Source: Nymphaea colorata (taxonomy: Eukaryota > Streptophyta > Magnoliopsida > Nymphaeales > Nymphaeaceae). From it: a stretch of DNA of 64,000 nt. The DNA lies in contig NC_045141.1 of assembly GCF_008831285.2 (NCBI RefSeq), positions 10,524,106-10,588,105 of the forward strand. The letters run 5' to 3'. A model generated the notes under the pieces. That model was not told the origin of the DNA, did no database searches, and saw only the letters and a program-made list of their open reading frames with translations. Below, piece by piece: positions 43,388 to 50,109 of this stretch; position 1 is the stretch's first letter; each line of letters starts with the position of its first letter. The position numbers and the translations under genes are program-made.

Positions 43388-43459
43388 GGAATTGTTGGGA
43401 TTTCCCCATCTGGATAGTCCTGCGTCGATACGGGTTCATATCCGTTTCGGACCCTTAAG

Positions 43460-43467
43460 TATAAATA
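43460..43467 (+). promoter_or_regulatory. TATA box of the copia 5' LTR
   Basis: TATAAATA, conserved in the 3' LTR at about 49760. Transcription would be expected to start roughly 30 bases downstream, placing the LTR short reading frame near the 5' end of the RNA. Confidence 0.7.
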
Positions 43468-43568
43468 CTCGTGTCTTATGATGGAGTGAGACACATCAAG
43501 TTTTTCCCGTCTGGGTAATCGGTCCCCTTAGCCATACGTGAATTGTCTGTCCCCATCACTGGGCTGCT

Positions 43569-43715
43569 ATGGCTGAGGAGAGAAACCCATTGCCGCTGCT
43601 GCCGCCACCGCTACCTCCGCAGGGGAACGACTCTATGAGAACCGTAGCCGTTCTGCCAACAGCCGCCAACATTCAGTCGGCGGTCGCCTCTACAGGTTCT
43701 ACTTTCGCCCTATGA
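43569..43715 (+). CDS. LTR short reading frame, candidate first coding exon of gag
   Basis: ATG-initiated frame of 48 codons, rich in Pro and Leu, ending TGA. The 3' LTR has the same frame as 51 codons (49869-50024), and the length difference is a multiple of three. A donor-like CAG/GTTCTA lies at 43695/43696, after 42 codons plus one base. The acceptor at 45488 would accept that phase and lead straight into gag, which has no ATG of its own. The frame lies downstream of the LTR TATA box, so it would be in the transcript. Splicing is inferred; the reading frame and signals are seen. Confidence 0.55.
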   Translation: MAEERNPLPLLPPPLPPQGNDSMRTVAVLPTAANIQSAVASTGSTFAL

Positions 43716-43795
43716 AACACATGGATCTATGAATGATTTTTCGATTTCTGCATTTTCCTTTGTGCGCTATCTTGATTCCTCGCAAAGTTCCAACA

Positions 43796-45488
43796 ATGGG
43801 TTATGGGCCCACACCATGTTTCCGCTGTGCGTTTCCCTTTGCATACTATTTTTTCACGCAAAGGGAATAGGGCAGAAACGTGGAAGAAGAGGGCACCAGT
43901 GTGCCTGTTCCTTCCTCTATTGCAGAATGGATGATGGAAGCGTTGGGCTTCTGTTGCAGCCGCAGAGAAAGGAACAGGGAGAGGCGACGGACGTGCTTCT
44001 TGCCGGCACCCACCCACTGTGTTGGGATAGAAACCGTCGTCTGTTGCCGAGAGACAAAACAACAGGCAAAAGGAAAAGGGGAAAACTTGAAACGGAAGGG
44101 AAAGGGAAGGCGACGGGTGACTGCCGAAAGGGAGGCCACCGGTGGGTTTGCCGTCGCCAGACGGCACCGTGCGACCCACCGGTGCCCACCCAAGTCGTAC
44201 GAAGCCCTGCCGGTTGTTCCCTTTCTCCCTCTGCCGTTTTCAACCACCGACATACAGTGAAAGGGGTTCGCTCGATTCTGGCACCCACATTCGCATCTCC
44301 ACCGCTGGGAGGTTCCTCGTCACCGGGCGGCACCGTGAGACTCTCTGGCGACCACCCAAGGCTGTCGGAGAGGAAAATCCGTCGTTGCCTGCTGTTGCAG
44401 GCGAGCAACGGTTTTTGTTGCCTGAAACCGCTCGCTAGGTCGAGTGGGAGTGGGTCTGGCGGAAGGCGGGTCGGACCCGGGTCGGGTTAGTCCTGTCTCG
44501 ACCCGGATCCATAAAAGTTTTTTTTAAAAAAAAAAAAAATCATTCCCACTAGTTCTTCCGCCCGACGCCCGCCCGTGTTTTGATTTTTTGGATCGGGTCG
44601 GGTCGACCCGTGTCCATACTGCCTGATTTTTTAAAACAGAACCGATTCGATCCGTTTCAGAACCGATTTGGGCATTTTCAAACTAATTCAGAGTTGTTTG
44701 AGACCGGTTCTTTCCCTTTTTAGACCGGTTCATTTAGTTTTCCACCGGTTCAGTCCATTTAGGACTGATACGGGACCGGTTCTAAGCTAGAGGAAGCTGG
44801 TATATGTGGTTGTATGCCCATTTAAGGTGTTTAACGAATTGGTTCGATCATTTTAAATCGATACGGGACCGATTCATTATGTGTTATGGAGCTTTAATGA
44901 ACAATTTTGATAGCATTAAGTTGATTATGCAGAAATGATCCGTGTGTTTCATTTTAAATGTGCTATTATGACATATTCTTGTATCATGTTTTTATTTAGG
45001 ATTATACTAAAGTTAATTTTATTGCATGATCATAAAGTTTGTACGATAATACTAATGTAAAGAGCCTATGATTAGTTAAATCATGTCATACCTCACCAAA
45101 CTGACTACGCATGATTTAAAGGCACATTAGTATTTCATGTTGTACTTACTCTCATTTGAAATAACATAATTACCCAAAGGTAGTGTGTTATGTTTAAGAG
45201 AATAAGTAGAATAAAATAGGAAAATAGATTCTTACATAGTTCTGTCATTTTACACCCAAAGGTGTTATGCTTTACTATAGTTTGAATTTACATTTCCTAG
45301 TTTTACTAGATAAAGTTAAGACGGAATACATGTGCGTATTAGGTATATTACCAAAATAGTAACCTAATGATCCCTGGTATTTGTCTTGGAAATAGTAGAC
45401 ATAAAGAGCCTTTTATTTAGTTAACTGTTCCATATGGTTTGTCTCATATAATGCATGTCAACTTATTGATATCTTTTGTCATGTGCAG
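43796..45488 (+). other. Copia leader region, probable intron
   Basis: The first 700 bases are GC-rich and purine-rich with long overlapping open frames on both strands that show no known domain. Around 44640-44790 are four copies of ACCGGTTC plus several ACCGATT sites. The rest is AT-rich without coding. It ends in ATCTTTTGTCATGTGCAG at 45488, a good splice acceptor. An upstream TGA in the gag frame (45467-45469) closes the frame, so the region cannot be a simple 5' extension of gag. Confidence 0.55.
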
Positions 45489-46370
45489 TGCCTAGTTCTA
45501 TTTATTTTAATGGCTCAAATTCTATCCCTTTACTTGATGATTCAAATTATGTTAAATGGAAAGAGAATGTTGTGTTTACATTAGGGTATATGGATCTGGA
45601 TATGACTTTGAGGCGACCTGAGCCACCACCTCGTACACCACAAAGTACACATAATGAAATAGTGTATTTTGACAAGTGGGAGCGTTCTAACCGACTAAGC
45701 TTGTTGCTTTTGCAATCAAGGGTCGCTAAGAACATACGTTGTGCTATCCCACATTGTAGAACGGTGAGAGAGTTCTTGGATACAGTTGAGGCTTAGTTTG
45801 TCAACTCTCATAAAGCCAGAGCCAGTACCCTAATGTCAAAGTTAATATCTATGAAATATCAAGGAGGGGGTAACATTCGTCAGCATATGTTAGAAATGAG
45901 GAACATTATTTCTTAATTGAATGACATGAAGTTGACTATTTCTGAATCTTTCTTGGTATTCTTTACTTTGACTTCTTTACCAGTTGAATATACTCCTTTT
46001 AAGATCAGTTACAACACACATAATACTGAATGGACATTCAATGAATTAATGTCTAAGTGTGTTGAAGAGGATGAAAGAATGAAGGGTGAGAAGTTGCAAA
46101 GTGCACATATGGTTTCTCACTCTGGGGCTGGTAAAGTTGGCATAAAGAAAAGTTCAATGAAAAGGAGTGCCAAGAAAAAGTCAACAAGTCAAACTGCTTC
46201 TCAAACTGCGCAGACTAACTTAGCTCCTATAAAATATTTCTTTTGCAAGAAAAAGGGGCATAAGAAGTCAGACTGCATCAAGTACAAGAATTGGTTAGAG
46301 AAGAAATGTTACATGTCATTTGTTTTATTTGAAAGTAATATGTTACATGTTTCTATTAATAGCTGGTGGA
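45489..46370 (+). pseudogene. Copia gag
   Basis: Encodes the capsid region of a plant copia gag (PSSIYFNGSNSIPLLDD, NYVKWKENVVFTLGYMDLDM, ERSNRLSLLLLQSRVAKNI). The frame opens without an ATG: the first codons after the upstream TGA are TAT CTT TTG, and the first in-frame ATG lies well inside the conserved domain. In-frame TAG (45794) and TAA (45914) interrupt it. A nucleocapsid knuckle near 46240-46275 reads FFCKKKGHKKSDC, where the first of the usual three cysteines is Tyr. Confidence 0.85.
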
Positions 46371-48135
46371 TTGACTCTGGTGCTACTGTGCATATTTTCA
46401 ATTCTTTACAGGACTTTCTAAGCAAAAGAGAACCAACTCTACATGAGAGGAACATTTTTTCAAGAAACAAAATGCGCTCACATGTGAAGGCTGTAGGAGA
46501 ATGCCAGATTAGACTTGATACTGGCTTTGTTTTGGATCTTCATGATGTTTTCTTTGTTCCATCATATAGTAAAAACTTAATTTCTATATCAAGACTGGAC
46601 AAATTTGATTTATGCTTAAAGTTTGAGAATTCAAAGATGTTCATTTATAAAGATCTTGTTGAAATTGGTTCTGCTATTTTGTGTGATGGTTTATACAAGT
46701 TGAATGTGAAGATCCAATCTCCTGAATTGTTGGTTTCTAGTCATTGTATAAGTGGCAATAAGCGTAGTATAATAAAAGATGATTCATACATGCTATGGCA
46801 CCACCGTTTGAGTCATATCTCTGAAAAGAGAATAAGGAGACTCTTAAATGAAGGGATCTTACGATCTCTTGATTTTACAGATAAAGGCATATGTGTAGAT
46901 TACATAAAGACAAAACAATCTAACATATATAAAAAAGGTGTCGAGCGACGTACTAAAAGATTAGGAATTGTTCACACAGATGTTTGTGGACCTTTCCTCC
47001 TTGTTACACAGGCGAAAAGTATTTTGTCACCTTTATAGATGACTATTCTCGGTATTTGTATCTCTACTTAATCTTTGAAAAATCTGATGTGTGTCAAGTT
47101 TTCAAGGACTATAAGAAAGAAGTAGAAAAACAAACCGGTGAAGTTATCAAGATAGTCAGATCAGATAGAGGTAGTGAATATTATGGTAGGTTTACTGAGA
47201 TGGGATAAAGGGAGGAACCATTAGCACGATTTCTAAAAGACGAAGGTATTGTGCATCAATACACCATGCCAAACAGTGCCTATCAAAATGGTGTAGCTGA
47301 AAGAAGAAATCGTACGCTTAAAGAAATGATTCGAGCTATGATAAATTATTCCACTCTCCCTCTAACCTTGTGGGGTGAAGCTCTCAAGACAGCAGTGCAT
47401 ATACAAAATAGGGTTCCTACTAAAGCTGTTCCCACAACTCCTTACGAATTGTGGACATGTAGGAAACCTTCTCTCTCTTATATGCACGTATGGGGATGTC
47501 CTGCTGAAGCTAAGTTGTACAACCCTTACATAAAAGCCTTTGATCCTAGAACAACCAGTGGTTTCTTTATTGGTTATCTAGAAAGATCGAAAGACTATAG
47601 ATTTTATTGTCCATCTCATACACCATATATTGGGGAAACAGATAAGGCTAAATTCCTGAAAGATGGTTCATTTGGACTAGATGCATTACAAAACCTCATT
47701 TTTGAGGAAATACAGGATACTGAAAGTAGACCTGCTAAAGAGAATGCAAGTGTGTATGAATATGTTGTCTCTCATGATGACATGAATGCAAATCATGCAA
47801 GTAATGCATCAGATCCAGATGAGTTAAATATAGATCATACTGATGAATACGAACAGGATGTAGCCATACAAATTGAAAATGATCAATTACCTGTTCGTAG
47901 ATCTGCAAGAGCCAGGAGATCTGCCATATCATCAGACTATGTGGTATACCTACAAGAGCCTAGTGATTTCATATATGTTGATGATGACCTTTTCACATTT
48001 ATTGAAGCTGTTGAAAGCAAACAATATAGACACTGGATTAATGTCATGAAAGAAGAGCTTGACTTTATGGCTAAAAACCAGACATGGAGCCTTGTGACTC
48101 TAAAGGCAACATGGAGAGATACAAGGCAAGATTAG
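46371..48135 (+). pseudogene. Copia protease and integrase
   Basis: Protease active site WIDSGATVHI near 46367-46396. The integrase zinc region has HHRLSHISEKRIRRLL, but the second Cys of the usual CxxC is Tyr (CVDYIKTKQ). The catalytic triad region is recognisable as GIVHTDVCGPF, VRSDRGSEYYG and [20 protein letters not shown]. The frame is broken by a shift near 47030 and a stop at 47206. The C-terminal part continues to [19 protein letters not shown] at about 48100, just before RT. Confidence 0.85.
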
Positions 48136-49490
48136 TTGCTAAATGATTCACACAAATGGAGGGCATTGACTATAATGAGACATATTCACCTGTCTCTGCT
48201 AAAAAGTCAATGAGGATTGTCCTTGCACTTGTAGCTCATTTTGACTTAGAGCTACATCAAATGGATGTGAAAACGGCTTTCTTAAATGGTGATTTGAATG
48301 AAGAGGTATATATGGATCAACCTCAAGGGTTTTCTAAGAGTGGTAAAGATCATTTGGTTTGCAAGCTTAATAAAGCGATTTATGGACTTAAATAAGCCTC
48401 ACGTCAATGATACATTAAGTTTTTCGAAGTCATTACGACCATTGGGTTTACAGAAAACATCATTGATCGATGTGTGTATCTTAAGATATGTGGGAGTAAG
48501 TTCAAAATTTTGACTTTATATGTGGATGATATTTTACTTGCTTCAAATGATCTTCAATTGCTAACAGAAACCAAACATTTTCTTGCATCTCATTTTGAGA
48601 TGAAGAACATAGGTGAGGTTTCGTATATTCTCAGCATTGAGATTCGTCGAGACAGATCTAAATATGTTTTAAGTCTCTCCCAATCAGCATACATCAATAA
48701 AATACTTAAAAGATATGGGATGGAGAATTGTTCTCCTATTTCAGTACCCATAGCTAAAGGTGATAAATTGAGCCTAAATGATTGTCCAAAGGACGAATTT
48801 GAAAAGGTACAAATGATCAACATTCCATATGCATCAGCAGTTGGTAGCTTGCAGTATGCGCAGATTTGCACTAGGCCAGACATTTCCTTTGCTGTTGGCA
48901 TGCTTGGTAGATTTCAATCTAATACAGGCATGACACATTGGCAGGCCATAAAGAGAGTCATGCGATACTTGCAAGGGACAAAAGATTACATGTTGACATA
49001 TCACAAGGTGGACCATTTAGAAGTGATTGGCTATTCTGACCCCGATCTTGGAGGATGCACTGATAGTAGAAAGTCTACTACTGGTTTTGTTTTCCTATTA
49101 TCAAGGGGTGCCATCTCATGGGGGAACAAAAAGCAGACTGTGACTGCTGCTCATACCATGAAAGCAGAATTCATTGTATTATATGAGACTACATCCCAGA
49201 CAATTAGGATAAAGAATTTCATTTCACAGCTCAAGATAGTGGATTCTATTGATAGACCACTTAAGGTTTACTGTGATAATGAAGCTGCAGTGTCCTTTTC
49301 TAATAACAACAAAAGTACTACTTCTTGTAAGCATATGGAACTTAAGTATTTTGTTGTTAAGGAAAAGTCAGAGAATCAACTAGTGTGTATTCAACACATT
49401 AGGACTACAGATAGATCCTCTTACTAAAGCGCTAGCATCTGGTATGTTTTTTGAACATGTTAAAAGGATGAGTTTGTGTAGTTCAATGTA
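48100..49490 (+). pseudogene. Copia reverse transcriptase and RNase H
   Basis: RT parts: [11 protein letters not shown] (48112), then a stop, then EGIDYNETYSPVSAKKSMRI, LHQMDVKTAFLNGDLNEEVY, and the catalytic LYVDDILLAS near 48514-48545. RNase H parts: GYSDPDLGGCTDSRKSTTGF, GAISWGNKKQTVTA and YCDNEAAVSFS, ending in DPLTKALASGMFFEHV. The usual segment before [11 protein letters not shown] (the IGCKW region) is missing, an internal deletion. Further breaks lie at the stop near 48150 and a shift near 48400-48470. Confidence 0.88.
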
Positions 49491-49691
49491 AACACACTAT
49501 TGTGCAAACATTTATAAATGTGATCACATATAGTTTGTTGATTCTCATTAAGTTTGTTGTCTATTTATTTTGCATTCTCATTTGTTTATTGAGAAGTTTT
49601 GTAAGACAATAAAGGTGGGATCTTGGAATGGATTTTAAGGCTAATCTATTCATTTTGTTTACCCTTGATATCGACTTGGACTAGTAGAAGA

Positions 49692-50104
49692 TGGTTGGGA
49701 TTTCCCCATCTGGATAGTCCTGCATCGATACGGGTCCATATCCGTTTCGGACCCTTAAGTATAAATACTCGTGTCCTGTGATGGAGTGAGACACATCAAG
49801 TTTTTCCCGTCTGGGTAATCTGTCTCTTTAGCCATACATGAATTGCCTGTCCCCATCACTGGGCTGCTATGGCTAAGGAGAGAAACCCATTGCCGCTGCC
49901 GCCACTGCCGCCGCCGCCGCTACCTCTGCAGGGGAACGACTCTATGGGGACTGTAGCCGTTCTACCAACAGCCGCCGACATTCAGTCGGCGGTCGCCTCT
50001 ATAGGTTCTACTTCTGCCCTATGAAACACACGTTTCTATGAATGGTTTTCGATTTCTGCATTTTGCTTTTGGTCGCTATCTTGATTCCTCATAAAGCTCC
50101 AACA
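49692..50104 (+). repeat. 3' LTR of the copia element
   Basis: Matches the 5' LTR along its length, starting TGGTTGGGATTTCCCC and ending AGCTCCAACA. It contains the TATA box and the 51-codon short frame (49869-50024) with the TATAG/GTTCTA donor-like site. Confidence 0.93.
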
Positions 50105-50109
50105 GGAAT

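Follow-up and report, generated by a model that had tools for sequence, protein, structure and literature searches.

Architecture of the copia element

The window, the whole 64,000-nucleotide (nt) stretch of Nymphaea colorata DNA analysed here, contains one copia element, which spans positions 43393 to 50104 and has GGAAT on either flank (Table 1). Its TG..CA LTRs and 5-bp target-site duplication are as in the Ty1/copia superfamily, and its domains, Retrotran_gag_2 (PF14223, below the cut-off), the integrase core (PF00665) and reverse transcriptase (PF07727), follow one another in the copia order. The two LTRs, with ends set by eye, measure 403 and 413 bases and are separated by a K2P distance of 0.077. 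Several stops interrupt the coding frame, and the element is an old, decayed copy, whose parts are described here as they stand, without repair of the frame.

Table 1 Features of the copia element and its flanks, in window coordinates
Feature	Position	Strand	Remarks
Target-site duplication, left copy	43388–43392	+	GGAAT; matches 50105–50109
5′ LTR	43393–43795	+	TGTTGG...CCAACA; ends set by eye
TATA box	43460–43467	+	TATAAATA; read from sequence
Predicted gag coding exon 1, inside the LTR	43569–43695	+	MAEERNPLP...IQSAVAST; 127 nt; phase 1
Predicted leader intron	43696–45488	+	1793 nt; GTTCTA...TGTGCAG; contains the primer-binding site and many ATGs
Primer-binding site (PBS)	43797–43812	+	TGGGTTATGGGCCCAC; half-tRNA type, complementary to the tRNA-Met anticodon arm
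gag-frame ATG 5′ of the acceptor (rival start)	45455–45457	+	followed in the window copy by TGA 45467
Predicted gag exon 2, start	45489–45796	+	VPSSIYFNGSN...; open up to TAG 45794–45796
Further gag coding sequence	45917–46093	+	Retrotran_gag_2 (PF14223), 26.4 bits, just under the cut-off of 27
Integrase core	46990–47184	+	PF00665
Reverse transcriptase	48147–48755	+	PF07727; two pieces split by a stop
3′ LTR	49692–50104	+	same frame at 49869–50024, 51 codons plus stop
Target-site duplication, right copy	50105–50109	+	GGAAT

The gag frame of this copy opens after the TGA at 45467–45469 and lacks an ATG ahead of the conserved capsid start. The first-pass annotation of the window had proposed that the LTR encodes the N terminus of Gag and that removal of a leader intron of about 1.8 kb connects it to the remainder, and the individual parts that it named are present. 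The LTRs hold ATG frames of 48 codons (from 43569) and 51 codons (from 49869), and the ATG of the 5′ LTR lies downstream of the TATA box TATAAATA (43460–43467). The donor CAG/GTTCTA at 43695/43696 (slashes mark predicted splice junctions) closes an exon whose length of 127 nt is 1 mod 3, and the acceptor ATGTGCAG, which ends at 45488 and is followed by TG at 45489, accepts phase 1 and matches this donor. When scored with a plant splice-site matrix, the donor is weak, ranking 15 among 134 GTs, and the acceptor ranks 11 among 110 AGs.

Conservation of the predicted exon and splice sites in the near family

A DNA search of the genome (407,766,735 bases) using the gag start defined the near family, for which 40 of the 135 candidates were scored and about 3.6 kb was taken around each. 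An LTR, whole or partial, was located for 35 of the 40 gag copies, and the resulting comparison comprises 36 LTR rows, namely those of 34 other genome copies together with the 5′ and 3′ LTRs of the window element. Of 22 further LTR places that do not belong to the 40 gag copies, 20 do not enter it.

The exon-1 ATG is kept in all 36 rows. The exon varies in length from 70 to 142 nt and is 1 mod 3 in 35 rows, the donor GT survives in 35 (L057 has lost it through an 11-nt deletion), and a stop falls within the LTR frame in 3. On the gag side, the acceptor AG is found in 39 of the 40 copies, L063 being the loss. The comparison of lengths modulo 3 gave 34 exons in class 1 and one in class 2 (n = 35), 16, 14 and 4 donor-to-LTR-end segments in classes 1, 0 and 2, respectively (n = 34), and 13, 12 and 6 introns in classes 1, 2 and 0, respectively (31 of 35 copies measured). 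The frame-changing indels of the LTRs start directly 3′ of the donor. Most 3n indels of exon 1 fall in a CCG repeat, in which 3n slippage is expected, so that changes of such lengths carry little weight at that site; outside the repeat, in-frame deletions are present in L047, L052 and L066.

The TATA box TATAAATA is found in 32 of the 35 rows holding that column. In 28 of 35 rows, no other ATG stands between TATA+25 and that of exon 1; the remaining seven have one more in this interval, which counts against the model. The context of the exon-1 ATG is GCTATGGC, a good plant start-codon context, in 27 of 35.

Phase, donor and acceptor are kept in the near family, and this comparison supports a Gag N terminus that would be encoded in the LTR and joined to gag by removal of the leader. 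The check proposed at first pass was whether the LTR frame and both splice sites are conserved under codon-like substitution. Across genome copies the LTR frame, the donor and the acceptor are kept. Substitutions within the family do not tell the exon-1 frames apart, the codon-position and N/S tests are uninformative, and the start and splice dinucleotides are conserved just slightly above the neighbouring bases. No conserved coding frame was seen in the GC-rich leader of 35 copies, where the position and strand of the longest frames vary from copy to copy.

Divergent relatives

We searched the genome with a Gag fragment and scored 150 of 324 candidates, which fell at 37–40% (55 candidates), 51–59% (4) and at least 72% identity (91, some of which are pieces of one copy). 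A search for the motif SNYxxWKE in other codons gave four matches and was set aside: three translated without Gag context, and the fourth was near-identical to one of those.

The four intermediate relatives (L093, L094, L095 and L096) are single decayed copies. The LTR of the L093 copy (L097) was located, whereas no LTR was identified in the stretches read for the remaining three (L098, L099 and L100). The L097 copy, the Gag of which is 54% identical, has an LTR frame of 94 nt in phase 1 (MVEERRP...AIDVQSVVV; ATG GTT GAG GAG AGA CGC CCA ... GAT GTT CAG TCA GTG GTT GTT AAT GCA G/GTTCAA), which keeps the donor as CAG/GTTCAA, and no ATG lies between TATA+30 and the exon start.

The exon-1 proteins of L097 and the near copy L051 align over their length with 14 of 38 residues identical, and the similarity is strongest in frame (z 7.8, as compared with 3.6 and 2.2 for the two alternatives). 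The window copy, which is decayed, shares a 9-residue match only with L097, and for this pair frames 0 and 1 tie at z 5.6. In hand-aligned blocks, the mean differences between exon 1 and L097 are 7.4, 8.7 and 6.3 at codon positions 1, 2 and 3, and this lack of third-position bias suggests that exon 1 would encode a fast-changing tail rather than a strongly constrained domain.

At the gag start, L095 reads GGAG/TG CCT AGT, in the same phase as the near family, and its leader ATG is out of frame. L093 has no simple in-phase acceptor, although its LTR fits, and decay is the only explanation that we can offer for this; in L096, the acceptor AG is lost.

A shared layout in the distant family

The family with 37–40% Gag identity provides evidence from both sides of the predicted intron. 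In L101 and L102, gag opens with TTGTACAG/TG AGT TCT, which keeps the near-family phase. For the L101 copy, the only distant one read at both ends, the LTR (L103) contains ATG GAT TCA G/GTATCC, the ATG of which is the first after the TATA box, and the LTR end CCAACA is followed by the usual full tRNA-Met PBS, 119 nt past the donor.

Both sites recur throughout the genome. A 26-mer of the commoner form of exon 1 (ATG GAT TCA G/GTATG) matched 380 genome sites with at most 3 mismatches, and a 26-mer of the acceptor (TACAG/TGAGT) matched 206 under the same threshold; the reversed-pattern control gave 0 in each case. Among the best 100 of the 380 exon-1 sites, the ATG is present in 98 and the GT in 100, a selection of best matches that overstates conservation, and among the 100 of 206 acceptor matches listed, counted by eye, the AG is present in 99. 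At least 11 exon–acceptor pairs among the matches listed lie 1565–2262 nt apart and represent all three length classes.

The distant exon is only 10 bases long and its sequence is unrelated to that of the near-family exon, and yet the start codon, the place, the phase and the acceptor are alike. This layout, shared despite the unrelated 10-nt exon, appears to us the strongest single argument for a split gag. The proposal made from the window alone thereby gains wider support, on the LTR side in the 54% relative and on both sides in the 37–40% family.

In L096 (C14:5008770–5009070, minus strand) and in L063, which have lost the acceptor AG, an ATG stands at that spot at the start of gag, and the distant-family acceptor at C1:6309386, among the 100 matches listed, shows a change of this kind.

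Alternative explanations

One alternative is that gag starts at its own ATG, either the equivalent of 45455 (MSTYRYLLSSA-VPGS...) or another just upstream, in which case the frame seen in the LTR would be a conserved cis element or a short upstream frame. The lack of a gag ATG, on which the first-pass annotation had built, holds for the window copy but is not a feature of the family, since in 30 of 39 near copies an ATG that is open into gag lies in frame, 33 nt 5′ of the acceptor codon (L063 is omitted from this count, because the acceptor deletion there shifts the tested frame). The first pass had named in advance, as evidence against an LTR-encoded start, any family member whose gag has an ATG in frame, and taken literally these 30 copies are such members. 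Three of the four divergent relatives (L093, L094 and L096) and one of the two distant copies (L102) have some other ATG in frame close to where gag begins, which likewise counts against the split-gag model.

A stop follows the 45455-type ATG in 9 of the 39 copies, the window copy and 8 others, and could mark decay; at the position of the TGA of the window, most near copies show AGA, GGA, CGA or the like. A stop common to nine copies is hard to square with a needed ATG, if those copies multiplied after the stop arose.

Against a start at this ATG, its equivalent does not lie in the gag frame of L093 or L095 and is missing from L094, it is one of 31–46 ATGs in the intron of each of the 31 near copies measured, and its 11 codons show no coding signature, the variants found in at least 3 copies comprising 1 synonymous and 3 nonsynonymous changes and 1 stop. 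On these grounds, we think that the 45455-type ATG is not the gag start. Moreover, L095 has no in-frame ATG before the acceptor, L101 has none upstream of gag, and those of L102 arise only through a 2-nt length difference that flips the frame. A gag that begins at its own ATG is thus, in our judgement, unlikely.

The leader might instead be spliced from another donor, and the LTR frame would then not encode the Gag N terminus. The leader does contain higher-scoring donors, for example at 44800 and 45343, but only a donor inside the LTR frame provides the gag of the window copy with a start codon, and of the five GTs in that frame the one at 43696 alone is in phase 1. The distant family, moreover, shows the better-looking CAG/GTATG in the same relative place and phase, and we regard the use of another donor as very improbable. 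We likewise give very little credence to a frame that arose by chance within a conserved, CCG-rich cis region (R/U5), for although R 5′ of the ATG equals the exon in conservation (0.964 versus 0.958–0.972) and CCG slips by 3n, frame-keeping deletions outside the repeat (set against the L057 deletion at the donor) and the phase kept in both the 54% relative and the distant family, with its unrelated 10-nt exon, speak against it.

Primer-binding site and leader repeats

All 16 bases of the near-family PBS are complementary to the anticodon arm encoded by a tRNA-Met gene, which we take to be of the initiator type; three tRNA-like places were fetched, and ARAGORN called one of them. Half-tRNA-iMet priming is also used by Drosophila copia, a likeness to the near family. 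In both families, the PBS lies inside the predicted intron and the donor lies upstream of it in the LTR, so that splicing would remove the PBS.

A half-tRNA-Met PBS is given for Osser, Bryco and part of Gymco-II in REXdb (PMC6317226). The window copy has a PBS of this type, and the distant family has the usual full tRNA-Met site (L103). Since the near-family PBS is unusual, self-priming, as the same source describes for TAR (PMC6317226), was considered and then dropped on the match to the tRNA-Met anticodon arm. A search for the half-tRNA PBS next to other LTR ends found seven places, two of which (L089 and L090) are decayed family members and five of which have no LTR match. L086 and L091 carry CTCCATCAATGGGTTATGGGCCCA but no match to the family LTR, and possibly belong to another family with a half-tRNA-Met primer site.

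Repeats of the form ACCGRTTC (ACCGGTTC/ACCGATTC) occur in the leaders of both families (window 43697–45488, and L103 and L101), in 6 and 10 copies, respectively, as compared with about 0.06 copies expected under even base use. If the split-gag model holds, these repeats would be carried by the unspliced RNA only, which makes them candidate packaging or dimer signals.

A predicted division between translated and copied RNA

The best explanation of these observations, and one that we consider highly probable from the comparison of genomic copies, is a split gag, in which an exon in the LTR contributes the start codon and is joined to gag by removal of the leader intron. The LTR, 3′ of the promoter, would carry a start codon at the head of a short coding exon, and this first exon would reach the donor in phase 1; an intron of about 1.2–2.3 kb, beginning in the LTR and containing the PBS, would be removed, and gag would resume at CAG/TG.

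From the conserved parts and their matching phase, we infer both the splicing and a division of labour between two RNAs. The spliced RNA, with the PBS gone, would be translatable and not reverse-transcribable, and could encode Gag-Pol as well as Gag. The unspliced RNA would keep the PBS and take the role of the genome, as ribosomes scanning it would meet only the short LTR frame, followed by dozens of ATGs. Because the start codon, the donor and the PBS follow one another in this order, the two RNAs would be unable to swap jobs, and the genome sequence itself predicts two molecules neither of which could do the work of the other. The weak near-family donor would leave much RNA unspliced, as such an element needs.

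Probes for the spliced junction, of 24 bases for the near family and 27 bases for the distant family, gave no genome match with up to 3 mismatches. This negative result fits the model without proving it, and more diverged copies would escape these probes.

Comparison with known elements

Yeast Ty1 has its gag start codon in the LTR, as predicted here, whereas its gag is continuous and has no leader intron. In retroviruses such as the lentiviruses, a donor lies in the 5′ leader and the unspliced RNA is the genome, as predicted here. The lentiviral donor, however, is 3′ of the PBS and the spliced RNAs retain the PBS, and gag is made from the unspliced RNA.

How one transcript can act as both mRNA and genome is presented as a major question in the abstract of the work on BARE (PMC3735527). 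Barley BARE1, also of the copia superfamily, keeps separate RNA pools for translation and copying and involves splicing. In that account, gag follows an untranslated leader, the pools are separated by two TATA boxes, and a 104-nt intron at the end of gag abolishes Pol expression, whereas the intron predicted here lies in the leader and would remove the PBS (PMC3735527). Drosophila copia likewise makes its Gag RNA by splicing, although, as this source summarizes it, the 2950 nt spliced out comprise virtually all of pol and not the leader (PMC3735527). For the copia element EVD/ATCOPIA93, the shGAG study describes a splicing event that yields a translation-favoured RNA, with the unspliced RNA mostly nuclear; there, by contrast, splicing is coupled to early polyadenylation, the product is a short Gag-only RNA and the intron is not in the leader (PMC8892269).

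Plant LTR elements are generally without introns, Ogre and EVADE being the exceptions given in a review (PMC12786077). In the literature searched, which lacks most subscription papers and is therefore weak evidence on this point, we found no description of a plant copia element with a leader intron and a gag start codon in the LTR. The model, if true, would account for elements that carry a leader with dozens of ATGs, and annotation that seeks an ATG at gag would mis-start these elements.

Taking the genomic evidence as a whole, we lean towards a view in which a single choice, to splice or not, would commit an RNA to either translation or replication and never to both: the intron would hold the PBS and perhaps packaging or dimerization signals in the form of the ACCGRTTC repeats, the LTR exon would offer the only usable start, and hundreds of LTRs would constitute portable first exons. 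The 380 distant-family LTR sites carry a promoter, a start codon and a phase-1 donor, and where such an LTR inserts 5′ of a host gene, that gene could gain a ready-made first exon.
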